Both the position numbers and the translations under genes were made by a program. Shown piece by piece: positions 824 to 42,155 of a stretch of DNA of 64,000 nucleotides. The stretch's first letter is position 1. Every line of letters starts with the position of its first letter. Origin of the DNA: Faecalibacter rhinopitheci (GTDB lineage: Bacteria; Bacteroidota; Bacteroidia; Flavobacteriales; Weeksellaceae); NCBI RefSeq assembly GCF_015234135.1, contig NZ_JADGIK010000003.1:1-64000 (forward strand), written 5' to 3'. The notes beneath the pieces are model-generated. The model was given only the letters and a program-made list of their open reading frames with translations. It did not search any database and had not been told where the DNA came from.

Positions 824-1019
824 GACTTTTGAATTAGTGTTATTAACTAATTTATGGTCAATTATATAATCGGGTAAATTTATTTTAATAGAGATTGTTT
901 TTTTTTAGTTTTTGTGATAATATTTTTAAAAATGGAATAGTTTATTAGTGAAGGAGGGAGGAAGTGAATTTGTTTTAATAAGTAGATATTGATTTTATAC
1001 TAATTATGTTCATTTTTGT

Positions 1020-1175
1020 CTTGATACAAAAAGAACCAAAAAAATCAAGGCTTCAAATCTATTTAACTAAAATTAAATTTCATTGCGGGAAAGATTTAAA
1101 TGACTCGTTAGCACTCGCTAAATCTTTCTAATCCTGCATTCTATTTCATTTTTTAACGTTATAGATTTATAGGCC
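1020..1175 (+). repeat. Long hairpin repeat, type A, copy 1
   Basis: The unit begins with the head hairpin CTTGAT...ATCAAG, followed by GGCT and an arm containing AAATCTAT. The inner stem GAAAGATTTA/TAAATCTTTC holds the loop AATGACTCGTTAGCACTCGC. The right arm contains ATAGATTT and closes at AGGCC. The two arms are imperfect reverse complements over about 45 bases. Further copies lie at 4942, 9752 and 10325. Confidence 0.9.
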
Positions 1176-1294
1176 GATTAAAAAGTGAAGATGTTATTTT
1201 ATAGGTAGATATTGATTTTATAATAATTATGTTCATTTTTTATTCATGTGTTTATTATTTTATGATTAATGTATTCATGAATCCTTCGGATTTG

Positions 1295-1350
1295 TCTTGA
1301 CACAAAACATTTGATTTGAGAGGAGAAGCTTAATAAGCTTTGGAATATAA
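1295..1350 (+). repeat. Short hairpin repeat, AAGCTT type
   Basis: A head half (CTTGACACAAAA) is followed by TTTGATTTGAGAGGAGAA and the palindrome AAGCTTAATAAGCTT. The same layout recurs at 7303, and with other stem sequences at 1393, 7223 and 10249. Confidence 0.8.
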
Positions 1351-1392
1351 TTTACTGAAGAATTATTTTTTATTTAGATGTTCATTTTTTGT

Positions 1393-1446
1393 CTTGATAC
1401 AAAACATTTGAAATTAAAAGGAGAAGCCACGGTGTGGCTTAGGTAT
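1393..1446 (+). repeat. Short hairpin repeat, AGCCAC type
   Basis: CTTGATACAAAA is followed by TTTGAAATTAAAAGGAGAA and the stem-loop AAGCCAC-GGT-GTGGCTT, then AGGTA. It is the same short family as the unit at 1295, but with a different stem of the same length. Confidence 0.8.
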
Positions 1447-1472
1447 TTTTTTTAATTATGTTCATTTTTTGT

Positions 1473-1632
1473 CTTGATACAAAAAACAGAACCAAAAAAA
1501 ATCAAGGCTTCGATTTTCGACGGTCAATGTTCATTTCATCTCTCTAAAATTTTTAATAAGATAACCTATCGGTTACTAAAAATTTTTGCGTTTCATTCAA
1601 TGAATTGACACTCGTCTGCTAATCGGTAGGCC
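1473..1632 (+). repeat. Long hairpin repeat, type C, copy 1
   Basis: The head CTTGAT...ATCAAG is followed by GGCTTCGATTTTCGACGG. The inner stem is AAAATTTTTA/TAAAAATTTT, with a loop containing AACCTATCGGTT that can itself fold. The right arm closes at AATCGGTAGGCC. Arms match as imperfect reverse complements (CGATT/AATCG, GTCAAT/ATTGAC). Confidence 0.9.
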
Positions 1633-1639
1633 ATTTAAA

Positions 1640-1692
1640 AAAGTGAAAAGGTTAATAAGTAAAGGATTGAAGAAGTGAAGAATATTTTTCTA
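1640..1692 (+). repeat. Degenerate purine-rich GTGAA tract
   Basis: After the closing GGCC of the long repeats the plus strand runs in A/G-rich sequence with GTGAA, GTAAA and TTGAAG words every 6-9 bases. Similar tracts lie near 945-975, 1928-1990, 2608-2665, 4835-4865, 5420-5480, 7085-7145 and 8310-8350. They look like decayed short tandem repeats. Confidence 0.55.
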
Positions 1693-1712
1693 TTTAGATG
1701 TTCATTTTTTGT

Positions 1713-1867
1713 CTTGATACAAAAAACAGAACCAAAAAAAATCAAGGCTGTAAATTCTTTGCTAAAAAAGAATTTCAGATGGCTAAATAATTTGAATCGC
1801 TCCTAACGTCGGCAAATTATTTTTAACGCCTTCTTCATTCTTTTTCTTAACGCGCGAATTTAAGGCC
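1713..1867 (+). repeat. Long hairpin repeat, type B, copy 1
   Basis: The head CTTGAT...ATCAAG is followed by GGCTGTAAATTC, the inner stem AAATAATTTG/CAAATTATTT with loop AATCGCTCCTAACGTCGG, and the right arm GAATTTAAGGCC. Further copies lie at 4674, 7422 and 10553. Confidence 0.9.
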
Positions 1868-1891
1868 ATTTAAAAAGTGATAAATAAAAAA

Positions 1892-1928
1892 TATTCTTTT
1901 TCTTAACGCGTGAGTTTAAGGTCGATTA
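1892..1928 (+). repeat. Right-end fragment of a type B repeat
   Basis: The sequence TTCTTTTTCTTAACGCG followed by GTTTAAGG matches only the last part of the type B right arm, as if the rest was lost by deletion. Similar tail-only fragments occur near 2575-2600, 5330-5412 and 10740-10770. Confidence 0.6.
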
Positions 1929-2060
1929 AAAAGTGAATGAGTGAAAAGGTTAAGAAGTAAAGGATTGAAGAAGTGAAGAATATTTTTTATTTAGATGTTC
2001 TTTTTTATTCATGTGTTTGTTATTTTAGAATTATTGTATTCATGAATCCTTAGGATTTGT

Positions 2061-2273
2061 CTTGATACAAAAAGAACCAAAAAAATCAAGGCTTCGATTT
2101 TCGACGGTCAATGTTCATTCTCTAAAGCTTATTAAGCTTTAGTACCCGAAATCATATTATGATTTCTCCTCTTAATCTCAAATACTAAAATTTTTAATAA
2201 GATAACCTATCGGTTACTAAAAATTTTTGCGTTTCATTCAATGAATTGACACTCGTCTGCTAATCGGTAGGCC
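2061..2273 (+). repeat. Long hairpin repeat, type C, copy 2, carrying a nested 58-bp insert
   Basis: This unit matches type C copy 1 but is interrupted in the left arm. Bases 2127-2184 hold an inverted short-family element (stem AAATCAT/ATGATTT plus AGCTTATTAAGCT). The insert is flanked by CTAAA at 2122-2126 and 2185-2189, whereas the uninterrupted copy has a single CTAAA at 1544-1548. The same interrupted form recurs at 7640-7800. Confidence 0.85.
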
Positions 2274-2308
2274 AAAAGAAAAAGTGATAAATAAAGGAAT
2301 GTAAAACT

Positions 2309-2560
2309 ATTAATAAACCATAAATTTCATTAGAATGTGTGATAAAAATTGCATGGAAATCGTAGACGTTAAGAAAATAAATTGAAGTAGAGAAAAGAAT
2401 GATTTAGCGAGTGTTAACGAGTCATTCAAATCATTCCTCGGATGAGATTTATTTTTAGTTGAAGATTTTAGCAATGTCTTTTTTGGTTCGTTTTTTTGAC
2501 GAAAAAAATGAACGTGAGTATAAAAGAATAATAGAGTTATGGTTTTATAAAAAGTGATAA
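2309..2560 (-). repeat. Reversed long hairpin repeat, type A variant (type D), copy 1
   Basis: Read on the minus strand this has the type A loop AATGACTCGTTAACACTCGC and the inner stem GAATGATTT/AAATCATTC. Its outer stem and head differ (GTC...GACATTGC in place of CTTGAT...ATCAAGGC). A near-identical copy lies at 8006-8260, where the inner stem is GAAAGATTT/AAATCTTTC, a paired substitution. Confidence 0.85.
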
Positions 2561-2733
2561 ATAAAGGATATTCCTTTTCTTAACGCGCGAATTTAAGGTC
2601 GATTAAAAAGTGAAGTGTAAATGTGTGAATTTGTGAAGGTGAGGAAGGGAAGTATTATAATTCTACAGGTAGCGAAGAATAAGTTGTTTTATTAATGTGG
2701 GAGGGTTTTTGATTTTGGAGGGTGAAAGAATGT

Positions 2734-3516
2734 TTATGTCACGAGTCTAGGTAGGTTGGATAGATTAATATTATGTTTTTTGAATACTCTGTACATTGTT
2801 GAGTAATTTTTGAAGCCTACTTTATATGCCACTTCCTTAAAGTTATAATTGCTTAGTGTGATTAATGTAAACGCATCTATGATTTGTATATGTTGCATAT
2901 ACATACAAGGTGATGAATTGAAATAAAATTCGTAGCCTAATCTTATTTTATAATAACTGTATTTATTTTTTATATCATTTATATTAAGTAACTCAGATTT
3001 TTTCAAGTTGTAATATATTCTTTTGTTGAGGTTAACTTGTGTACTGTGCACTTGTATGGATGTAAGATAAAAAGTGTACGTATTTTGGCCTATTTTGTGT
3101 CCTGAAAATAAGAGATGATGGTATCCTTCTGAGATTTCAGATATATCAATATTAAAAGTTTTGTAATGTTGTTGCCATTTTATTTTGTTTATTTTTTCTA
3201 ATAAAAAAGTGGTGATATAAGGGAGGTGATGTTGTATTTTATCATCTATTTTAGTATTTACCCATTCTTTATTGTCTGTATTGTACATGAAATAGTTGTC
3301 TAAAGCTATATTCATTTGATGATGGAATGCATTAATTCCTAAAAAATTAATGTCATAAAACAGTTCGAGAATAGACTCCAAATAGAGGTAACTTAGTTGC
3401 TGGATGAGTGATGCTTGGTTGAATAAGCGGTTATCATTATGGTTTAAGAGTTCGCAAAGTTTTTCTTTATAGTCACTCAGTCGAACTACTAACTCTTCGT
3501 AAAATTCAAATTTCAT
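2734..3516 (-). CDS. AraC-type C-terminal helix-turn-helix protein with an uncharacterised N-terminal domain
   Basis: The 260-residue product has an AraC-like DNA-binding segment only in its last 50 residues (around FKEVAYKVGFKNYSTMYRVFK), which matches the second helix-turn-helix of AraC proteins. The preceding 200 residues resemble no sensor domain I recognise and contain no signal peptide or membrane segment. ATG at 3516 is preferred over a TTG two codons upstream. The gene stands alone between repeat arrays, on the same strand as the DUF6266 gene whose promoter side lies upstream, so it may regulate neighbours. That role is inference. A single HTH, rather than the usual pair, makes the AraC label partial. 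Confidence 0.65.
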   Translation of the reverse strand: MKFEFYEELVVRLSDYKEKLCELLNHNDNRLFNQASLIQQLSYLYLESILELFYDINFLGINAFHHQMNIALDNYFMYNTDNKEWVNTKIDDKIQHHLPYITTFLLEKINKIKWQQHYKTFNIDISEISEGYHHLLFSGHKIGQNTYTFYLTSIQVHSTQVNLNKRIYYNLKKSELLNINDIKNKYSYYKIRLGYEFYFNSSPCMYMQHIQIIDAFTLITLSNYNFKEVAYKVGFKNYSTMYRVFKKHNINLSNLPRLVT

Positions 3517-3618
3517 AAGCAATTGTATATTAGTGTGATATCATTATTTAATTTAATGGAAATTATGCGTTGTTTAAAATATTTTTAAATATTTGATATG
3601 TTTATTTATAAAAATAAA

Positions 3619-3640
3619 TATCCCCTCCAGAGAGGGGATA
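3619..3640 (-). terminator. Terminator of the DUF6266 gene
   Basis: The stem TATCCCCTC/GAGGGGATA has a 4-base loop. It lies 5 bases beyond the stop codon at 3646 on the minus strand and is followed on that strand by a T-rich run. It is unusually GC-rich for this neighbourhood. Confidence 0.8.
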
Positions 3641-3645
3641 TAAAC

Positions 3646-4293
3646 TTAGGTTACAGTGACTAATCCTAAATAGATTGAATTGGAGGCTTCTTGCAAAATA
3701 GGATTTACAAAACTAACCCAGATGTGTAAATCGACACCTTGAAATTTAGGAAGGAGTTGGAATGCAACACTTTCATCTTTTCGTAAAGCAGTTGTTTTTA
3801 CGACCGTGCTAAGGAGCTTGTCTTGATTTTCTTCTGCATACATTACATATAGGATGTCATTCTCATCTAATGTGTCTGTAGAATTATCCATCCAATTAAC
3901 ATTTACTGTTAATGGGTCATCTGATGTAATGCTTGAAGGTTGAGGTTCTAATAAATTTCCTTTTGTAAACATAATTTCCTCGTGATTCACACTGAATGTT
4001 AAGTCTGTCACATCTAGTTTAATCGACTTTAATAAATTGCTCATCGCTACATTGTAAGGAGATTTAAGTCCTACTCTTTTGCCGTAATATTCTTTTACAA
4101 CTGTTTTATACCCTTGTATAAATTTTACTGCAAAATTGAATCTCTCTTTGACCAGCTGTTGTTTTGGGGTTGCTGTTCGTGCTGTTTTACGTGGTCTCAT
4201 CCGAGAGATCTCATGCCCTTGGATATTCGAAACAACGATACGTCCTGTGCGTCCTCTTGTTCCTGATAATAATGAATCTGTAATTTTTCCCAT
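3646..4293 (-). CDS. DUF6266 family protein
   Basis: The 215-residue product starts MGKITDSLLSGTRGRTGRIV and has a basic, Arg-rich N-terminal third (RMRPRKTARTATPKQQLVKE), followed by KSPYNVAMSNLLKSI and a C-terminal half of alternating hydrophobic strands. This pattern matches my recollection of DUF6266, a Bacteroidota family of unknown function. An upstream in-frame ATG at 4425 would add 44 residues rich in Ser, Cys and His that do not resemble the family, so 4293 is chosen. No signal peptide is visible. The gene has its own terminator and lies 1.2 kb from the next gene. It may belong with the HTH and DUF5675 genes as one accessory set, which is inference. Confidence 0.65.
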   Translation of the reverse strand: MGKITDSLLSGTRGRTGRIVVSNIQGHEISRMRPRKTARTATPKQQLVKERFNFAVKFIQGYKTVVKEYYGKRVGLKSPYNVAMSNLLKSIKLDVTDLTFSVNHEEIMFTKGNLLEPQPSSITSDDPLTVNVNWMDNSTDTLDENDILYVMYAEENQDKLLSTVVKTTALRKDESVAFQLLPKFQGVDLHIWVSFVNPILQEASNSIYLGLVTVT

Positions 4294-4467
4294 GATTTTG
4301 ATTTTTAAATGATTAATACTATGATTACAACAACAGTGTGAAATTACAGGGATGGTTTTAGATATTGTGTACTGTGATAAGGTGATGAATAGATTGATCA
4401 GTGAAAGTGTTTTTTGATTTTTCAAGAGAGGTTTTGTGTAACGATTTTAAGTTTTTGTGCGTAGTTT

Positions 4468-4506
4468 CTGTAGGTGTTCTGTATGCACGCTGTAGGCATT
4501 CTATAT
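4468..4506. promoter_or_regulatory. Candidate operator: two imperfect direct repeats spaced 22 bases
   Basis: CTGTAGGTGTTCTGTAT at 4468-4484 and CTGTAGGCATTCTATAT at 4490-4506 agree at 13 of 17 positions. The spacing equals about two helical turns. A weak third match starts near 4510. They lie about 175-215 bases upstream of the DUF6266 start. Protein binding is only suggested by spacing. Confidence 0.35.
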
Positions 4507-4673
4507 CGTTTGTATAGGGTTTGTTCGGTGTTTGTTTGGGGAAGGGAGTTGTGAAGAGGTTTTTAGTAATTAAAATGGAATAAGTGTTTGTTTATAAGTG
4601 TTCTTAGATGTTCATTTTTTATTCATGTGTTTATTGTTTTAGTAATTTTTTTTATTTAGATGTTCATTTTTGT

Positions 4674-4823
4674 CTTGATACAAAAAGAACCAAAAAAATC
4701 AAGGCTGTAAATTCTTTGCTAAAAAAGAATTTCAGTTGGCTAAATAATTTGAATCGCTCCTGACGTCGGCAAATTATTTTAACGCCTTCTTCGTTCTTTT
4801 TCTTAACGCGCGAATTTAAGGCC
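4674..4823 (+). repeat. Long hairpin repeat, type B, copy 2
   Basis: The head, arms and loop are as in the unit at 1713, with one loop change (CCTGACG for CCTAACG) and a slightly shorter right arm. Confidence 0.9.
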
Positions 4824-4941
4824 ATTTAAAAAGTTAATGAGTGAAGGAGTAAATGAGTGAAATTGTTTTTAATAAGTAGAAATTGATTTTCTATTTATAC
4901 TATATTCCGAAGCTTATTAAGCTTCTCCTTTTAATTTCAAA

Positions 4942-5097
4942 TTTGATGAAAAAGGAACCAAAAAAATCAAGGCTTCAAATCTATTTAACTAAAATTAAAT
5001 TTCATTTCGGGAAAGATTTAAATGACTCGTTAGCACTCGCTAAATCTTTCTAATCCTCCATTCTATTTCATTTTTTAACGTTATAGATTTATAGGCC
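4942..5097 (+). repeat. Long hairpin repeat, type A, copy 2
   Basis: The head is TTGATGAAAAAGGAACC...ATCAA, preceded by an inverted short-family element (4909-4942, AAGCTTATTAAGCTT). The arms and loop match copy 1. Together with the reversed type C unit at 5157 it forms a composite block that recurs at 9752-10113. Confidence 0.9.
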
Positions 5098-5156
5098 ATT
5101 TAAAAAGTGGGTTGTAAAGAATTGTGAAGATGTAATTAATTACCTGAAGTAAAATT

Positions 5157-5311
5157 GGCCTAACGATTTGGAGACGAGTGTCAATCCAATGAATGGATCG
5201 TAAAAATGTTTACTGAGCGATAGCGAATGATTTTAAACATTTTAGAGAAATGAAATGAGAATTGACCGTTGAAAATCGAAGCCTTGACTTTTTGATTACT
5301 TTTTGGTCAAG
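5157..5311 (-). repeat. Reversed long hairpin repeat, type C variant, copy 1
   Basis: On the minus strand the head stem is CTTGAC...GTCAAG, a paired change from CTTGAT...ATCAAG. The inner stem is AAAATGTTTA/TAAACATTTT and the loop contains TTCGCTATCGCTCAG. The arms close with GGC at both ends. Confidence 0.9.
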
Positions 5312-5484
5312 CAAAAAGTGATAAATAAAGAATATTCTTTTTCTTAACGTTATAGATTTAGAGGCCAAAGGACAAGTGATAAATAAAGAATATTCTTATA
5401 AATTTAGAGGCCATTTAAAAAGCAATGATTGAAGAAGTGAAGAGGTGAAAAAAAGTAGTGAGAGTAAGAAGGTTCGGATATATT

Positions 5485-5763
5485 CTATTTTGCTAAATGT
5501 AATAATACGCCTCTAATAATGTCGTGTTGTAAGAGGAAATTTCGTTTTCCTATGCGATAGACTTTGAAATATTTTTTGTTACAATATCTTTTCAGTGTTA
5601 CGACTGATATTTGTAGCATTTGTGCTACTTTGTATTCTTCAATAAAAATAGATTTATTGAATGTTGGAATGTGATTTTTCCAGTTATTTTCTAGTTCATT
5701 AATCTTCTCAATAAGATTATTGAACCATTGTACGGAGTAAATAGGATCAAGGGATTGATTCAT
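5485..5763 (-). CDS. Small MerR/excisionase-like helix-turn-helix protein
   Basis: The 92-residue product ends in a winged-HTH pattern (IEEYKVAQMLQISVVTLKRY...YRIGKRNFLLQHDI, residues about 40-85) like the HTH_17/MerR-type domains of excisionases and plasmid or prophage regulators. The first 35 residues are a likely short helix. Its ATG overlaps the TGA of the upstream gene by four bases (ATGA), so the two are co-translated. No integrase or recombinase is in the window, so an excisionase role cannot be supported. A local transcription regulator is equally likely. Confidence 0.65.
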   Translation of the reverse strand: MNQSLDPIYSVQWFNNLIEKINELENNWKNHIPTFNKSIFIEEYKVAQMLQISVVTLKRYCNKKYFKVYRIGKRNFLLQHDIIRGVLLHLAK

Positions 5764-5954
5764 AATTCATCTTTAAATTCTTTTAAACTAATTTTATAAC
5801 ATTCACAGAATTCTTTGAAGCCAAGTAATTCATCTTTTGTTTTACCTAATATTGCTTTTGCTTTATTCATAAGTCTTAAACTTTGACGGTAGCTTCTCCC
5901 AGTTAAGAGTTGTACGTCCTTTGGATAAATAATTACTCTTTTTTTAAATTTCAT
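5760..5954 (-). CDS. Small conserved-looking DNA-binding-type protein, first gene of a two-gene unit
   Basis: The 64-residue product (MKFKKRVIIYPKDVQLLTGR) resembles a short protein common in Flavobacteriia that begins with a strand of basic and hydrophobic residues. A helix-turn-helix-like PKDVQLLTGRSYRQSLRLMNK segment comes next, and the protein ends with LGFKEFCECYKISLKEF. ATG at 5954 is preferred over TTG at 5960. The Arg-rich helix after residue 18 could contact DNA, but no function is assigned in any family I can name. It overlaps the next HTH gene by four bases, suggesting the two proteins act together. Confidence 0.55.
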   Translation of the reverse strand: MKFKKRVIIYPKDVQLLTGRSYRQSLRLMNKAKAILGKTKDELLGFKEFCECYKISLKEFKDEL

Positions 5955-6233
5955 ATTCAATTTTTTAGTGTTTATAACTGTTTGATTAAAAATGTTATAA
6001 TAATTTAAAACCTATTATTTAGTTATTTAAATATTTTTAAGAAGAGCATATAATTGTTTAAAAACAGTCGTTGTATTTTGATAGAAGCAATATGTTGATG
6101 TTTTTTTTACCTAAATATGTCTTATAATGCCATATGGTACGTTTCGTTTTTTGTTCTGATTTTTAGGTAGTTACTTTGGATTAATTATTTCGTAGGGTGT
6201 TATCAACCTTTTATTAACATTAACTAACGTATT

Positions 6234-6680
6234 ATGGAATTAGTATTAGTAAGGGATTATTTCTCAAAGGGTACAAATGGAACTTTATGGTTACAACAAC
6301 AACAGCTTTGTTTTACTATTGAACGACCTTGGAAAAACAATGAACGAAACCGTTCTTGTATTCCTGAAGGAAAATATCCTTTAAAAAAGCGTTATAGTCA
6401 ACGTTTTGGATGGCATGTATTGATTGATAAAGTATTGAACCGATCACTCATTCTCATTCATCCTGCTAATTATGCACTAAAGGAGCTAAATGGTTGTATT
6501 GCTCCGGTTACTTCGCTCACTGGTGAGGGAATAGGTAGTTACTCTAAAAAGGCATTTGAAAAGCTTAGGTCGATTGTTTTTTCATGCTTTGAAAGAGGTG
6601 AAGAGGTTAATTTAATCATTAAATCTAAAAAAGATGAATATACTAGAACGTATTCAGAAACCCACCCCAAAAATATTTAA
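6234..6680 (+). CDS. DUF5675 family protein, possible peptidoglycan-active enzyme
   Basis: The 148-residue cytoplasm-start protein (no signal peptide) matches the DUF5675 pattern: an N-terminal GTNGTLW...CFTIERPW, then CIPEGKYPLKKRYS (residues 42-55), then LIHPANYALKELNGCIAP with His76 and Cys88. The His...GC arrangement is reminiscent of the YkuD L,D-transpeptidase signature (H...S-x-GC), so a cell-wall role is possible, but this is inference. The gene heads a three-gene cassette: the next ORF starts 47 bases inside it, and a strong terminator follows the third gene. Cassettes of a wall enzyme with tiny membrane proteins look like phage lysis modules. No other phage genes are present. Confidence 0.65.
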   Translation: MELVLVRDYFSKGTNGTLWLQQQQLCFTIERPWKNNERNRSCIPEGKYPLKKRYSQRFGWHVLIDKVLNRSLILIHPANYALKELNGCIAPVTSLTGEGIGSYSKKAFEKLRSIVFSCFERGEEVNLIIKSKKDEYTRTYSETHPKNI

Positions 6681-6867
6681 ACAATTACGTACAATAGGTT
6701 TAGTTGCTGCCAGTATTGGTGGAGCTCTAATTGCCGCACCTATTGCTATTCCTACTCTATTGGTACAGATAGGAGGATACTTGGTTGTTGCTGGAGGTAT
6801 TTTATCGGGTGTAAGTCAATTAACTGTTGATGATGCTTTTGTCCTTGAATCCCATTCCTCAAGATGA
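6634..6867 (+). CDS. Small membrane protein, holin-like by size and layout
   Basis: The 77-residue product has two hydrophobic stretches (IGLVAASIGGALIAAPIAIP at about 21-40 and VQIGGYLVVAGGILSGVSQL at about 44-63), both glycine and alanine rich, with a basic N-terminus (MNILERIQKPTPKIFKQLR). It starts inside the DUF5675 gene in another frame, an overlap of 47 bases. Small two-helix proteins beside a cell-wall enzyme are typical of holins. With no known family match the label is positional inference. No function should be assumed without a homologue. Confidence 0.5.
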   Translation: MNILERIQKPTPKIFKQLRTIGLVAASIGGALIAAPIAIPTLLVQIGGYLVVAGGILSGVSQLTVDDAFVLESHSSR

Positions 6868-7027
6868 TCATCTTAAGATAGCGGCATTTGGCGGTACAAT
6901 GTCGGGATTTATGGCAAGTATACAGTGGCAAAATATTGTATCTACTGTTGTTTTAACTGTAATTGGTGCTTTGGTTAGTTTTGGTATGTCGTTGTTTTTA
7001 CAACGGTATGTGCATTTCAAATCATAG
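6830..7027 (+). CDS. Small single-helix membrane protein, third gene of the DUF5675 cassette
   Basis: The frame runs 65 residues from ATG at 6830 (a second ATG is at 6833 and a TTG at 6827). It has one clear transmembrane segment (IVSTVVLTVIGALVSFGMSLFL) and a short basic tail (QRYVHFKS). It overlaps the previous gene by 38 bases in another frame. A further ATG at 6899 (MSGFMASIQWQNIV) would shorten it to 42 residues without losing the helix, so the start is uncertain. The terminator begins 12 bases after the stop. No family recognised. Confidence 0.5.
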   Translation: MMLLSLNPIPQDDHLKIAAFGGTMSGFMASIQWQNIVSTVVLTVIGALVSFGMSLFLQRYVHFKS

Positions 7028-7038
7028 TATATAAAAAA

Positions 7039-7069
7039 AGGCTTCTAAGTTTTGCTTAGAGGCCTTTTT
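7039..7069 (+). terminator. Terminator of the DUF5675 cassette
   Basis: AGGCTTCTAAG and CTTAGAGGCCT form a stem with one mismatch and a 4-5 base loop. A run of five T follows. Confidence 0.9.
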
Positions 7070-7222
7070 GTTATGATATAGAGTTAGTTGTTAGTAAAGG
7101 AGGAGGAGTGAAGAAGTGAAGTTGTTTTTAATAAGTGAAGAATATTTTTCTATTTAGATGTTCATTTTTATTCATGTGTTTATTGTTTTATAATTATTGT
7201 ATTCATGAATCCTTCGGATTTG

Positions 7223-7280
7223 TCTTGATACAAAAAACAATTTGAGATTAAAAGGAGAGGCCACGGTGTGGCTTAGGTAT
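7223..7280 (+). repeat. Short hairpin repeat, GCCAC type, copy 2
   Basis: CTTGATACAAAAAACA is followed by TTTGAGATTAAAAGGAGA and a GGCCACGGTGTGGCT stem-loop, then TAGGTA. One stem base differs from the copy at 1393. Confidence 0.75.
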
Positions 7281-7302
7281 TCTTTTATACTTTCATTTTT
7301 GT

Positions 7303-7350
7303 CTTGACACAAAACATTTGATTTAAGAGGAGAAGCTTAATAAGCTTTGG
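7303..7350 (+). repeat. Short hairpin repeat, AAGCTT type, copy 2
   Basis: This is almost identical to the unit at 1295: CTTGACACAAAA, TTTGATTTAAGAGGAGAA, then AAGCTTAATAAGCTT. Confidence 0.8.
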
Positions 7351-7421
7351 AATATAATTTACTAAAGAATAATTTATTTAATAAGTGAAGAATTATTTTC
7401 TATTTAGATGTTCATTTTTGT

Positions 7422-7572
7422 CTTGATACAAAAAGAACCAAAAAAGTCAAGGCTGTAAATTCTTTGCTAAAAAAGAATTTCAGATGGCTAAATAATTTGA
7501 ATCGCTCCTAACGTCGGCAAATTATTTTTAACGCCTACTTTATTCTTTTTCTTAACGCGCGAATTTAAGGCC
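7422..7572 (+). repeat. Long hairpin repeat, type B, copy 3
   Basis: The head reads CTTGAT...GTCAAG, giving a G-T wobble in the stem compared with other copies. The arms and loop AATCGCTCCTAACGTCGG match copy 1. Confidence 0.9.
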
Positions 7573-7639
7573 AATTAAAAAGCAATGATTGATGAAGTTA
7601 TTTGATTTAATAAGTAGATATTGATTTTATAATAATTAT

Positions 7640-7800
7640 GTTCATTTTCTAAAGCTTAATAAGCTTTAGTACCCGAAATCATATTATGATTTCTCCTCTT
7701 AATCTCAAATTCTAAAATTTTTAATAAGATAACCTATCGGTTACTAAAAATTTTTGCGTTTCATTCAATGAATTGACACTCGTCTGCTAATCGGTAGGCC
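7640..7800 (+). repeat. Long hairpin repeat, type C, copy 3, head deleted and nested insert present
   Basis: The unit has the same 58-base insert (7654-7711) between CTAAA motifs as the copy at 2061. Sequence from the head to the second TGTTCAT is absent. The deletion end points fall in TGTTCAT direct repeats, as expected for slippage or recombination between them. Confidence 0.85.
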
Positions 7801-8005
7801 ATTTAAAAAAGTGAAGAAGTAAGTTCTCAGGTATAAGTTGTATTAGGGAGTTTTAAAACAGATAAACAAGGAAAGCAGAGTTATTATACGTCTAAATTCT
7901 CGATACAATTTTTCTTATTCAAAAGAATCGAAAAATCACTCGAATTGACGATTAATTGTCACGCAGAGCTTGTCGAAGCGTTTAATAGACTAGCGTCCAG
8001 CTATT

Positions 8006-8260
8006 GATTAATAAACCATAAATTTCATTAGAATGTGTGATAAAAAATTGCATGTAAATCGTAAACGTTAAGAAAATAAATTGAAGTAGAGAAAAGAAAG
8101 ATTTAGCGAGTGCTAACGAGTCATTTAAATCTTTCCTCGAATGAAATTTATTTTTAGTTGAAGATTTTAGCAATGTCTTTTTTGGTTCGTTTTTTTGACG
8201 AAAAAAATGAACGTGAGTATAAAAGAATAATAGAGTTATGGTTTTATAAAAAGTGATAAA
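8006..8260 (-). repeat. Reversed long hairpin repeat, type A variant (type D), copy 2
   Basis: It is nearly identical to 2309-2560 over about 250 bases. On the minus strand the outer stem is ATTGC...AAATC with GATTT...GCAAT, and the inner stem is GAAAGATTTA/TAAATCTTTC. Confidence 0.85.
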
Positions 8261-8446
8261 TAAAGAATATTATTTTTCATAACATTATAGATTTAGAGGC
8301 CGATTAGGGTAGTTGTGAAGAAGTAATATAGGGAAATGAGTGAATTTGTTTTAATAAGTAGATGTTCTTTTAATCAGTTAAATATCTGAAATCATGCTTA
8401 TCTAAACAAATCATAAAAACACGATTCATATCCAATATCTAATTCT

Positions 8447-8454
8447 TAAATTTG
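8447..8454 (+). promoter_or_regulatory. Promoter -7 box TAAATTTG for the DegT-family gene
   Basis: TAAATTTG matches the Bacteroidota -7 consensus TAnnTTTG and lies 20 bases before the ATG at 8474, implying a leader of about 12-14 bases. No clear -33 TTTG was found. Confidence 0.6.
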
Positions 8455-8473
8455 TTGTAGAAAAACACTATAA

Positions 8474-9610
8474 ATGAGCTCAAAAATATGGCTATCGTCT
8501 CCACATATGGGAGGAAATGAACTAAAATATATACATGAAGCATTTGATACAAATTGGGTTGCTCCCCTTGGTCCAAATGTGAATGGTTTTGAAGAGGATT
8601 TAGAAAAATACCTACAGGTAGATTCTTATGTAGCTGCTTTGTCTGCGGGTACTGCTGCTTTGCATCTTGCTTTGATAGAATGTGGTGTAACGCACGGGGA
8701 TGAGGTTATCTGCCAGTCGATGACATTTTCTGCATCGGCTAATCCAATTGCTTATCAGGGTGCTACTCCTATTTTTGTAGATTCGGAAGAAGATACATGG
8801 AATATTTGTCCTATTGCATTAGAAGAAGCTATTGTAGATCGTATTGCAAAAGGAAAAACGCCTAAAGCGATATTAGTGGTTCATTTATACGGAATGCCTT
8901 TTAAAGTTGATGAGGTATTGGCTATTGCTGCTAAGTATAATATTCCGGTGATTGAAGATGCTGCTGAGGCATTGGGTTCTACTTATAAAGGAAGAAAGTG
9001 TGGTACTTTTGGGCGTTTTGGTGCTTTGTCTTTTAACGGGAACAAAATTATTACGACTTCTGGTGGTGGTGCGTTGGTTTGTAATACAAAAGAGGATAAG
9101 GATAAAGCTGTATTTTTAGCTACACAAGCGCGTGATAATGCACCTCATTACCAACATTCTCATATTGGATATAATTACCGTATGAGTAATATTACAGCAG
9201 GTATTGGACGTGGACAAATGGAAGTTTTGGATAACCGAGTTGAAGCGCGTCGTGCAATGAATGCTTTTTACCAAGAATTATTCGCAGGTATTGATGGAGT
9301 AACGGTATTTACAGAGCCTAATGAGGATTTCTTTTCTAATCATTGGTTATCAGCTATCTTAATTGATGCTGAAATTACTGGTATTACGAGAGAGGATTTG
9401 CGTTTGGCTTTCTTGGAAGATGATATTGAATCTCGTCCGTTATGGAAACCAATGCATATGCAGCCTATTTTTGCTGATGCACCTTATTATGGGGGGATAG
9501 TAGCTGAAAAGCTTTTTGATAATGGGTTATGTTTGCCTTCTGGTTCTAATTTGACTGACGAAGATCGTGCTCGTATTGCTGCAAAAGTAAAAGAAGTATT
9601 TGGGAAGTAG
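8474..9610 (+). CDS. DegT/DnrJ/EryC1/StrS-family aminotransferase
   Basis: The 378-residue PLP-dependent enzyme is of the sugar aminotransferase class. It has the phosphate-binding SAGTAALHLAL (residues 57-67), the PLP-ring aspartate in IEDAAEALGS (Asp162) and the Schiff-base lysine in FNGNKIITTSGGG (Lys191). These enzymes convert a nucleotide 4- or 3-keto sugar to an amino sugar for polysaccharide or glycan synthesis. PglE-like enzymes that make the amino sugar of bacillosamine are close in length and motif spacing. Unusually, no other sugar-modification gene is adjacent, and repeat arrays lie on both sides, so the exact substrate is not inferable. Confidence 0.88.
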   Translation: MSSKIWLSSPHMGGNELKYIHEAFDTNWVAPLGPNVNGFEEDLEKYLQVDSYVAALSAGTAALHLALIECGVTHGDEVICQSMTFSASANPIAYQGATPIFVDSEEDTWNICPIALEEAIVDRIAKGKTPKAILVVHLYGMPFKVDEVLAIAAKYNIPVIEDAAEALGSTYKGRKCGTFGRFGALSFNGNKIITTSGGGALVCNTKEDKDKAVFLATQARDNAPHYQHSHIGYNYRMSNITAGIGRGQMEVLDNRVEARRAMNAFYQELFAGIDGVTVFTEPNEDFFSNHWLSAILIDAEITGITREDLRLAFLEDDIESRPLWKPMHMQPIFADAPYYGGIVAEKLFDNGLCLPSGSNLTDEDRARIAAKVKEVFGK

Positions 9611-9751
9611 TTCGGATTACAAAATAGGTAATACGTAAAAATAATAAAAAGGGAATTGACGGAAGTTGGTTCTCTTTTTTTTATAGGGGAAGAAGTGAAC
9701 TAGTTTTAGTAAGTAAATATTGATTTTATACTAATTATGTTCATTTTTTGT

Positions 9752-9911
9752 CTTGATACAAAAAACAGAACCAAAAAAAATCAAGGCTTCAAATCTATTT
9801 AACTAAAATTAAATTTCATTTCGGGAAAGATTTAAATGACTCGTTAGCACTCGCTAAATCTTTCTAATCCTGCATTCTCTTTAATTTTTTAACGTTATAG
9901 ATTTAGAGGCC
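9752..9911 (+). repeat. Long hairpin repeat, type A, copy 3
   Basis: The head is CTTGATACAAAAAACAGAACC...ATCAAG. The arms and loop match copy 1, with small changes in the right arm. It is followed after about 49 bases by the reversed type C unit, as at 4942-5311. Confidence 0.9.
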
Positions 9912-9959
9912 ATTTAAAAAGTGGGTTGTAAAGAATTGTGAAGATGTAATTATAAAATT

Positions 9960-10113
9960 GGCCTAACGATTTGGAGACGAGTGTCAATCCAATGAATGGA
10001 TCGTAAAAATGTTTACTGAGCGATAGCGAATGATTTAAACATTTTAGAGAAATGAAATGAGAATTGACCGTTGAAAATCGAAGCCTTGACTTTTTGATTA
10101 CTTTTTGGTCAAG
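9960..10113 (-). repeat. Reversed long hairpin repeat, type C variant, copy 2
   Basis: It is nearly identical to 5157-5311, including the CTTGAC/GTCAAG head stem and the loop TTCGCTATCGCTCAG. One T is missing next to the inner stem. Confidence 0.9.
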
Positions 10114-10248
10114 CAAAAAGTGATAAATAAAGAATATTCTTTTTCTTAACGCGCGAATTTAAGGCCGGATTAAAAAAGTTAATTTGTAAACGATTGATCT
10201 CGTGAATTAGTTTTAGTAATTTTTTTTATTAATTATGTTCATTTTTGT

Positions 10249-10300
10249 CTTGATACAAAAAATTTGATCTGAGAGGAGAAGCCACGGTGTGGCTTAGGTA
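10249..10300 (+). repeat. Short hairpin repeat, AGCCAC type, copy 3
   Basis: CTTGATACAAAAAATTTGAT is followed by CTGAGAGGAGAA and AAGCCAC-GGT-GTGGCTT, then AGGTA. Confidence 0.8.
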
Positions 10301-10324
10301 TTTTTTTAATTATGTTCTTTTTTC

Positions 10325-10480
10325 CTTGATGAAAAAGGAACCAAAAAAATCAAGGCTTCAAATCTATTTAACTAAAATTAAATTTCATTTCGGGAAAGAT
10401 TTAAATGACTCGTTGGCACTCGCTAAATCTTTCTTATCCTCCATTGTATTTAATTTCTTAACGTTATAGATTTAGAGGCC
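10325..10480 (+). repeat. Long hairpin repeat, type A, copy 4
   Basis: The head is CTTGATGAAAAAGGAACC...ATCAAG as in the unit at 4942. The loop carries one change (CGTTGGCAC) that leaves the stem intact. Confidence 0.9.
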
Positions 10481-10552
10481 ATTTAAAAAGTGAAGGATTT
10501 ATTTGATTTAATAAGTAGAAATTTGTTTTTCTATTTAGATGTTCATTTTTTT

Positions 10553-10703
10553 CTTGATACAAAAAGAACCAAAAAAATCAAGGCTGTAAATTCTTTGCTA
10601 AAAAAGAACTTCAGTTGGCTAAATAATTTGAATCGCTCCTGACGTCGGCAAATTATTTTTAACGCCTTCTTCGTTTTTTTTATTAACGCGCGAATTTAAG
10701 GCC
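10553..10703 (+). repeat. Long hairpin repeat, type B, copy 4
   Basis: The head, arms, inner stem and loop (CCTGACG variant, as at 4674) are all present, with AAAAAGAACTTC in the left arm. Confidence 0.9.
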
Positions 10704-10902
10704 AAAAGAAAAATGATCTAATAAAAAAGTCATTTTAATTTCTTTTTCTTAACGCGGGAATTTAAGGTTACCTAAAGGTGTGAAATATAAAAATACAATA
10801 TGGTAATGAATATAATGTAGCGATAAAATCATTATTCAACTTTTGATGTAGCAAAAACTGGTCAATAAAAAATACTATCTTCGTTTACACTAAAATAAAT
10901 AA

Positions 10903-41099: not shown

Positions 41100-42155
41100 T
41101 TACATCATTTTTAAGAAGTTAACTTCCATTTCAGTTAAAGGGCGGAAATCTCCACGTCCAACTGTTTTCTTAGTTAATCCAGCAAAAGATACACGATCTA
41201 AAGCTTCAACTTTATAATCTAATTTCTCGAAGATACGACGTACAACGCGGTTCCATCCAATGTGGATTTCAATTCCGACTTCGTTTTTAGGACGTTTTTC
41301 GATGTAAGAAATGTTATCTACAATTGCAATTCCTTCTGGAATTAAACGGATACCTTTCTTAATTTCAGCCAAATCATTTGCTGTTAATTTTTTATCTAAC
41401 GTAACATGATAGATTTTTTTAACGTCGTGACTTGGGTGAGTTAATTTTTTAGTTAAGTAACCATCGTTAGTAAATAAAAGAACTCCTGTTGTTTGACGGT
41501 CTAAACGTCCTACTGGGAAAATACGTGCTGTTGTAGCAGGACGCATTAAATCCATTACTGTAGAGCGATCTTTCTCATCTTTAGAAGTTGTAATGAATCC
41601 TTTTGGCTTATTTAATAAAAAGTAAACATTCTTTTCTGAAGAGATTCTTTTTCCATCGAAACGAACTTCGTCTCCTGGTTGAACTTTATAACCCATTTCT
41701 GAGATAACTTGACCATTCACTGTAACGATTCCAGTTTTGATCAGTTCGTCGGCCTCTCTTCTGGATGCAATCCCTGCATTCGCTACATATTTATTTAAAC
41801 GAATAGTCCCATCATCAACAGGTGCAGCCTTAAGCCTTTTTACGAAAGGCTTCTGACCAAATTTGTTGCTTGGTTTGTTTGCTCCAAAACTTTTTCCTCC
41901 TTCTGGTCTACTACCTCCACCAAAGCTTGGTCTCCCGCCTTCAGTTTTTTTAGCTCCAAAGCTTGGTTTACCTCCTTCTGTTCTGCTACCTCCACCAAAA
42001 GCTGGTCTCCCACCTTCAGTTTTTTTAGCTCCAAAACTTGGTTTTCCTTTTCCTCCGGTAGGTCTAGATGAAGAAGAAGATGTACTTCCTCCTTTTCCAC
42101 GATTATTCCCGCCCTGGGAATTTTTGTTGTTGGATTGATTTCGTCTGTTATTCAT
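41100..42155 (-). CDS. RluB-type pseudouridine synthase with long low-complexity N-terminus
   Basis: The catalytic half (residues 115-351) has an S4 domain (RLNKYVANAGIASRREADELI) and GRLDRQTTGVLLF with the catalytic Asp, as in RluB/RluE-type enzymes. The first 110 residues are Gly, Ser, Lys and Arg rich and hold two copies of a 25-residue unit (KPSFGAKKTEGGR-PxFGGGSRxEGG, residues 38-87) plus a partial third. Such tails can bind RNA non-specifically. It overlaps the UbiA-type gene by four bases (ATGA), so translation is coupled. Confidence 0.88.
   Translation of the reverse strand: MNNRRNQSNNKNSQGGNNRGKGGSTSSSSSRPTGGKGKPSFGAKKTEGGRPAFGGGSRTEGGKPSFGAKKTEGGRPSFGGGSRPEGGKSFGANKPSNKFGQKPFVKRLKAAPVDDGTIRLNKYVANAGIASRREADELIKTGIVTVNGQVISEMGYKVQPGDEVRFDGKRISSEKNVYFLLNKPKGFITTSKDEKDRSTVMDLMRPATTARIFPVGRLDRQTTGVLLFTNDGYLTKKLTHPSHDVKKIYHVTLDKKLTANDLAEIKKGIRLIPEGIAIVDNISYIEKRPKNEVGIEIHIGWNRVVRRIFEKLDYKVEALDRVSFAGLTKKTVGRGDFRPLTEMEVNFLKMM

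Follow-up and report, generated by a model that had tools for sequence, protein, structure and literature searches.

What is maintained in a repeat whose fold persists while its sequence changes, and in which nucleic acid does that fold act? The question is raised by one end of a 334-kb contig of Faecalibacter rhinopitheci (Bacteroidota, Weeksellaceae), whose 2.89-Mb genome is assembled in 44 contigs. The stretch analyzed here, referred to as the window, comprises the 64,000 nucleotides at positions 1 to 64,000 of contig NZ_JADGIK010000003.1 (assembly GCF_015234135.1). Between positions 1008 and 10703 it carries about 15 copies of one element of ~165 bases, all located between genes. Elements of this kind covary at paired positions, keep specific unpaired letters, recur across genera and classes, are clustered, form one tandem array in a sister species, and differ in body at corresponding sites of sister species. 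With roughly even confidence, we read these units as an old family of fold-defined, non-autonomous intergenic DNA elements acted on by an enzyme. The proposed element, ~160 to 260 bases long, would comprise from 5′ to 3′ a palindrome (P1) with its loop, an A-rich linker, a second helix (P2) formed with that loop, and a long hairpin. Its pairing would matter in DNA, either single-stranded or extruded, and a trans-acting recombinase or nuclease may read the fold and copy or rewrite the elements.

A previous sequence-only reading listed at least 12 units of types A, B, C, C variant and D; about 15 are present, 12 of them detected by a covariance model, and the arms quoted for each type occur as described. 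Its central claim, that the fold persists through sequence change, has strong support from covariation in head and body, from an arm-swap test and from matches of the model at foreign loci. Its view that the arms are unrelated between types did not hold for all types, as type A and type B bodies can be aligned and type D matches type A at ~80% identity by BLAST.

The head is a likely pseudoknot

The head is built around P1, a palindrome of mostly 8–11 bp (e.g., GTTCTTTTTGT/ACAAAAAGAAC), whose 6-base loop, usually CTTGAN, pairs with NTCAAG beyond the A-rich linker to form P2. Together, P1 and P2 make the head a likely pseudoknot; the short head hairpin noticed previously is one helix of this arrangement, in which the P1 palindrome had been overlooked. 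Covariation was measured in 37 distinct heads, with near-identical heads removed beforehand and degenerate ones retained. In P1, 86.5% of cells are paired, versus 68.0% with partners permuted, and two-sided changes number 70, versus 20.9 on permutation (maximum 38); none of 2000 permutations reached either value. P2 is paired in 99.1% of cells, versus 94.8% permuted, with 11 two-sided cells versus 2.8, and its position 6 changes on both sides (TA in 24 heads, CG in 9, AT in 2 and TG in 2). In aligned heads, 49 two-sided cells compare with 15.0 after shuffling, a value not reached in 500 shuffles.

The sequence of the head varies around this plan. P1 occurs as GTAC…GTAC, TTAC…GTAA and AATAC…GTATT, among others, and one element recognized via its body has a different P2, GCGAT/ATCGC, below a P1 of 15 bp. 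Type D heads have the loop TTCGTC and a P2 that is short only. Some heads are composite, with a complete head placed after the first half of another variant.

The body is a covarying hairpin with conserved unpaired letters

The body is a long imperfect hairpin that opens with GGCY and closes with RGGCC or near variants. For single copies, the folding energy is modest (z-scores of −4.2 to −1.0 in 11 window bodies), so the case for the fold rests on covariation. One alignment combined type A and type B bodies from this genus (23 sequences, 131 columns) and a second was built from 11 type C bodies, type D being left out of both. In the A/B set, two-sided change is seen at 19 of 32 consensus pairs, with 101 two-sided cells versus 25.9 in shuffled alignments (0 of 500 shuffles reaching the observed value) and at most 18 in slid controls. 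The C set gives 21 two-sided cells versus 6.2 (again 0 of 500), with slid controls at or below 3. The consensus structures come from the same alignments, which favors the percentage paired more than the number of two-sided changes. A covariation test of the kind suggested by the sequence-only reading gives two-sided changes above permuted, shuffled or slid controls in heads, A/B bodies and C bodies alike.

Pairing between arms was also assessed by swapping right arms among 55 non-redundant elements, with the partner stretch chosen freely. An element's own arm gives −27.3 kcal/mol, versus −17.7 kcal/mol with the arms of others, and ranks first in 31 of the 55, a result reached by none of 2000 permutations.

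Several unpaired letters are conserved along with the helices. An asymmetric internal loop between the helices has TA opposite CTTAAC in this genus and is repeated in some members, and ACTCG-like letters can be recognized by eye in the terminal loop. The two halves of a motif, CTAAA-like on the left and TTAACG-like on the right, are correctly placed in 27 of 54 non-redundant bodies, compared with a shuffled mean of 0.22 (maximum 2); wrong motif halves give 4 and 1.

The element spans genera and classes

The covariance model, R1, was trained on type A and type B bodies from this genus, without their heads, and was run on collected loci rather than on whole genomes. At E ≤ 0.01, it matches the 12 window units (four A, four B, two D and two C-like, the D and C-like units on the minus strand); type D had no part in the A/B and C alignments. 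At the same threshold it finds 33 matches in 22 of 38 head-bearing foreign loci, contigs of Ignavibacteria and Calditrichaceae included; 28 of the 33 (19 loci) begin at TCAAGRC and three are duplicates from overlapping loci. These 38 loci are a subset of the head-bearing ones, several of them overlapping, and most of the remainder were searched separately with R1. In 49 control loci, and in 10 more, R1 has no match even at E ≤ 1. The covariance-model check, also suggested beforehand, came out in favor of the fold.

Heads were also searched for by themselves. Four named contigs, from one Calditrichaceae, two Ignavibacteria and one Bacteroidetes, contain an exact copy of a 40-base stretch of the head, followed in each by a long hairpin-folding sequence with arms of its own. 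A looser head pattern is found in 23 of 395 sampled genomes of the phylum, which we take to be Bacteroidota in the wide sense of GTDB, the window genome counted; a reversed control pattern is found in none. The figure of 23 is a lower bound, since the pattern misses elements with other P2 letters. The looser pattern also occurs in five stretches of viral contigs, and five proteins scanned from two of these match phage terminase, portal, head and head-protease families. Among named phages, neither the head nor one phage-contig element had a match, and a window unit gave two matches, short and weak. Plasmid searches with a window unit returned two head-sized matches (Haliscomenobacter and Persicobacter); the bare head and another element returned none, and the E. 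coli genomes searched contained no match. No description of the element was found in open-licence papers, subscription journals lying outside the search; absence from Rfam and from this literature is not proof of novelty.

Corresponding sites carry different bodies in sister species

A comparison of three neighboring sites drew on up to 11 genus members, G000 denoting the window genome. At site 1, G000 and G395 carry a type C body, G398 carries type A and G400 retains a type A remnant, with no element detected in the seven others. At site 2, G000 and G400 carry type A and G395 a shortened version of it; G398 carries type C, G405 and G407 have a head joined to a short body unrelated to these, and no element was detected in the remaining five. 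At site 0, G000 and G398 have type C and G400 has another head variant with a collapsed body, the eight remaining genomes being without a comparable stretch. Orientation is identical in all occupied cases. The counterpart of the window cluster in G400 (G400:C1:969370-970682; L185, L249) lies beside the same aminotransferase gene and is an array of six heads spaced 256–257 bases apart, of which all but the last have a type C body and the last has another. Head variants are not alike in G000, G400 and G398.

Paired changes could also be produced without selection. Palindromes may maintain and rewrite themselves by replication template switching, in which one arm is copied onto the other so that paired changes arise in single events, slippage deletes bodies and recombination makes arrays; one report (PMC8794818) describes template-switch events in RNA genes. 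Many two-sided changes and few G-T intermediates would follow from such a process, and the G400 array, with its regular head spacing, and body-less G400 copies with junctions that by eye resemble short direct repeats are consistent with it. We nevertheless consider it doubtful as the full explanation. Among the closest relatives in the alignments, changes on one side only are more frequent than paired ones (36 versus 12 in A/B; 25 versus 17 in C), so unpaired intermediates exist. A purely mutational origin is hardest to reconcile with P2, in which a hairpin loop pairs with a separate strand and which arm copying would not maintain, and with the unpaired letters, which are conserved across classes.

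Pair usage hints at DNA

RNA helices tolerate G-U pairs; DNA helices treat G-T and A-C alike as mismatches. In the alignment-fixed helices of the elements (1729 cells), there are 21 G-T and 34 A-C combinations. In the same loci, the acceptor and T stems of tRNAs (156 cells; 13 distinct tRNAs of 19 found, with the 3′ offset chosen for most Watson–Crick pairs) contain 15 G-T and 2 A-C, a difference with a Fisher P of 0.0006. With P1 left out, the element ratio is 16:16 (P 0.012 versus tRNA). Because G-T is scarce and no commoner than A-C, unlike in tRNA stems, pair usage leans towards element pairing that acts in DNA rather than RNA.

This usage bears directly on the possibility that the units encode a structured small RNA, an H-type pseudoknot with an A-rich third loop and a hairpin, serving either the cell or a selfish RNA-guided system. 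The pseudoknot geometry with its A-rich linker and the covariation fit such an RNA. We regard it as unlikely given the DNA-like pair usage, the clustering of dozens of similar copies within a single genome, and the lack of both a shared neighbor gene and a strand preference. Rfam has no family at gathering score in the window, and its four sub-threshold matches in four related loci are unconvincing.

Neighbor genes and candidate enzymes

Genes flanking the elements show no strand preference (27 ++, 26 −−, 17 +− and 15 −+), for which reason a cis-regulatory job for the elements seems improbable. Proteins of 104 neighbor genes were scanned (103 of 124 listed, 21 mostly short open reading frames being dropped, plus one added); the commonest families, sugar-nucleotide enzymes, account for only 4 of the 104, so no partner gene is shared. 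Genes of the DUF5675 kind, related by eye, lie beside elements at window 6234-6680 and at L042 6412-6816; PF18925 is matched by 2 of the 104 neighbors, and the window gene matches phrog_1501, of unknown function.

Mobilization as REP-like elements (repetitive extragenic palindromes) by a RAYT (REP-associated tyrosine transposase, TnpA-REP, of the Y1 type) was considered, perhaps by subclass 2.6 of Bacteroidetes, whose genes are said (PMC6006769) to have atypical secondary structures at their flanks. The window genome has one divergent RAYT, below the usual Pfam cut-off (G000:C34:265186-265332; L197), and G400 has copies at G400:C1:2341463 and 2341942 (L196, L200), the second shorter and surrounded by GGGCGAATTGCAATTCGCCC-like repeats. 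The search covered a sample of Y1 genes with flanks of up to 1.5 kb. The 30 strong loci contain no R1 match and no head except one chance-like match with five substitutions allowed. Twenty weak-match loci (14 + 6, L197 included), ~16 of which by eye contain a RAYT-like frame, also lack an R1 match; one of them, L204 (class 2), carries a degenerate head lying ~0.8 kb away from the gene, and chance-like head matches occur elsewhere in this set. Given that several of seven class-2 flanks by eye hold short REPs of their own, and that the element-bearing genomes G081, G368 and G398 have no PF01797 match even at E ≤ 10, RAYT mobilization is very improbable. Nor does the presence of Y1 genes separate head-bearing from head-free genomes (20 of 22 versus 39 of 48, among 70 genomes of which the 48 were hand-picked from the same families).

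Other enzymes were sought in 15 element-bearing genomes. Integron integrase (TIGR02249) is above cut-off in four and reverse transcriptase (PF00078, E ≤ 0.001; very divergent ones would escape) in five, in neither case including G000, G400, G398 or G395; weaker tyrosine-recombinase matches occur in all 15. A tyrosine recombinase (open frames of 360–377 codons) lies beside a DinB-like polymerase gene in four genus members (G000:C3:30102-30899, L246; L244, L245, L247), with no element within 1.5 kb of it and no other link to the elements. Two 997-residue proteins with identical first 60 residues, SusC-like by eye, are encoded near element clusters on different contigs (L031 10258-13251 and L033 4494-7487). 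In a polysaccharide cluster, L033 12998-13357 is a four-helix-bundle gene (TIGR02436) that matches the Avd model of diversity-generating retroelements below cut-off.

Weighing the reading as fold-defined DNA

Several results count against fold-defined DNA elements acted on by an enzyme. No cognate enzyme was found in the RAYT, reverse transcriptase and integron integrase searches. Further pair types do not exceed shuffles in A/B bodies (112 of 500), C bodies (391 of 500), aligned heads (131 of 500) or the 37-head set (748 and 203 of 2000), and the number of head pairs with two-sided change is likewise not above shuffles (48 of 500, aligned heads). The own right arm is not top-ranked in 24 of 55 elements, and 16 of the 38 head-bearing loci have no R1 match at E ≤ 0.01, so R1 is not universal. 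For the opposite strand, the ratio of G-T to A-C is 34:21, not significantly different from tRNA (P 0.07), and all P values for pair usage are rough, the cells sharing ancestry rather than being independent. At site 2, the flank past the right end differs between genomes too, so exchange of the body alone is not demonstrated there. Insertion junctions and target duplications are unreadable, with no closely alignable empty site among the matches listed, which are mostly repeat-to-repeat. Finally, element strands in G400 are mixed relative to replication (origin at ~1.2 Mb, from sampled GC skew), leaving lagging-strand transposition unsupported.

The suggestion that selection on structure or a fold-recognizing enzyme is at work is plausible, as unpaired motifs are conserved too, and unproven, as template switching between arms can also make paired changes and no enzyme was found. 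A bolder version, which we put forward tentatively, is that these are phylum-wide mobile DNAs whose identity is a single-stranded fold (pseudoknot plus hairpin) rather than a sequence, with exchangeable head and body modules that an undescribed host or mobile enzyme would rewrite in place. If pairing does act in DNA, the elements would offer a natural family rich in paired changes for studying how bacteria read, copy and repair folded single strands, and the short list of fold-defined elements, with attC sites and REPs at its head, would grow by one. Body exchange can be tested directly at the sister-species sites. A caution also follows: strong covariation is usually taken to prove an RNA, yet it may arise without one.

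Units in the window and in the genome

The units of the window are listed in Table 1. The exact head pattern has 10 matches in the window, all within 1021-10584, and none in 100 dinucleotide shuffles. The plus-strand C unit and both C variants lie beyond the reach of R1. Seven solo right ends are present, four detected by BLAST and three by eye. Pattern, repeat and R1 searches found no comparable element in window 10800-64000.

Table 1. Elements and solo right ends in the window
Feature	Positions	Strand	Detected by
Unit A1: P1/P2 head + type A hairpin	1008..1175	+	head pattern, R1
Unit C1: head + type C hairpin	1460..1632	+	BLAST, head pattern
Unit B1: head + type B hairpin	1700..1867	+	BLAST, head pattern, R1
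Solo right end, type B	1894..1930	+	BLAST
C variant 1: head with P1 5′ arm altered; body 57 bases longer than C1 via inserted hairpins	2056..2274	+	BLAST, head pattern
Unit D1: diverged head (loop TTCGTC) + type D hairpin	2350..2513	−	BLAST, R1
Solo right end, type B	2571..2607	+	BLAST
Unit B2	4662..4823	+	BLAST, head pattern, R1
Unit A2: another small repeat in place of the head's upstream half	4938..5097	+	BLAST, head pattern, R1
C-like unit, reverse strand, copy 1	5157..5322	−	BLAST, R1
Solo right end, type A	5338..5366	+	by eye
Short solo right end, type A	5396..5412	+	by eye
Unit B3	7410..7572	+	BLAST, head pattern, R1
C variant 2: headless body, insert similar to C variant 1	7638..7800	+	BLAST
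Unit D2	8049..8212	−	BLAST, R1
Solo right end, type A	8270..8300	+	by eye
Unit A3	9739..9911	+	BLAST, head pattern, R1
C-like unit, reverse strand, copy 2	9960..10126	−	BLAST, R1
Solo right end, type B	10137..10166	+	BLAST
Unit A4	10314..10480	+	BLAST, head pattern, R1
Unit B4	10541..10703	+	BLAST, head pattern, R1
Solo right end, type B	10740..10767	+	BLAST

Across the genome, BLAST with single units at E ≤ 0.001 gives 48 (A), 52 (B), 36 (C) and 53 (D) matches, sets that overlap and include head-only matches. Copies often lie close to contig ends and on small contigs, in the vicinity of sugar-nucleotide and polysaccharide genes, and others inside large contigs; the many copies near contig ends and on small contigs suggest, but do not show, that the repeats broke the assembly.

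Other repeats share the same intergenic spaces. A second small repeat, of GGAGAAGCCACGGTGTGGCTTAGG type, adjoins units at window 1401-1452, 7235-7286 and 10256-10307, where it comes after the first half of a head. A third, a AAGCTTAATAAGCTT hairpin, occurs at 1291-1394 and 7298-7401, and also inside the C variants at ~2119-2185 and 7645-7711. Further dispersed palindromes (TTCTCGATACAA...CTCGAA type and TCCTGAAACGAGTTCAGGA type) are found at window ~7880-7985 and at genus sites L152-L162. Farther along the window, the frame 41100-42155 contains a 75-base tandem duplication at 41892-42041.

Comparison with known systems

As a kind, the elements extend the dispersed extragenic palindromes. Like REPs, their composite BIMEs (bacterial interspersed mosaic elements) and the associated RAYTs, they are dispersed, intergenic, palindromic and clustered non-coding copies of one fold. 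A REP, as characterized in PMC6006769 and PMC3733652, is a hairpin of 20–40 nt with a GT[AG]G foot. In contrast, the elements are several times longer (bodies of ~120–180 nt plus a head of ~45 nt), have a pseudoknot head and do not lie beside the sampled RAYT genes; no GT[AG]G foot was noticed by eye.

Pseudoknotted structured RNAs have a comparable P1/P2 architecture and covariation, and differ in that the elements have DNA-like pair usage and, in the window, match no Rfam family at gathering score. Miniature inverted-repeat transposable elements are likewise short, non-autonomous and present in many copies per genome; unlike them, the elements lack enclosing terminal inverted repeats, their 5′ GTTC-type and 3′ RGGCC ends being non-complementary by eye. 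The attC sites of integrons are folded single-strand recognition sites whose arms vary while the fold and unpaired bases are kept; the elements share this pattern of variation and would work in a similar way. They differ in arrangement and partner: the elements show no cassette-like arrangement, inspection by eye recognized no R″/R′ boxes, and the window genome and three sister species have no integron integrase over cut-off.

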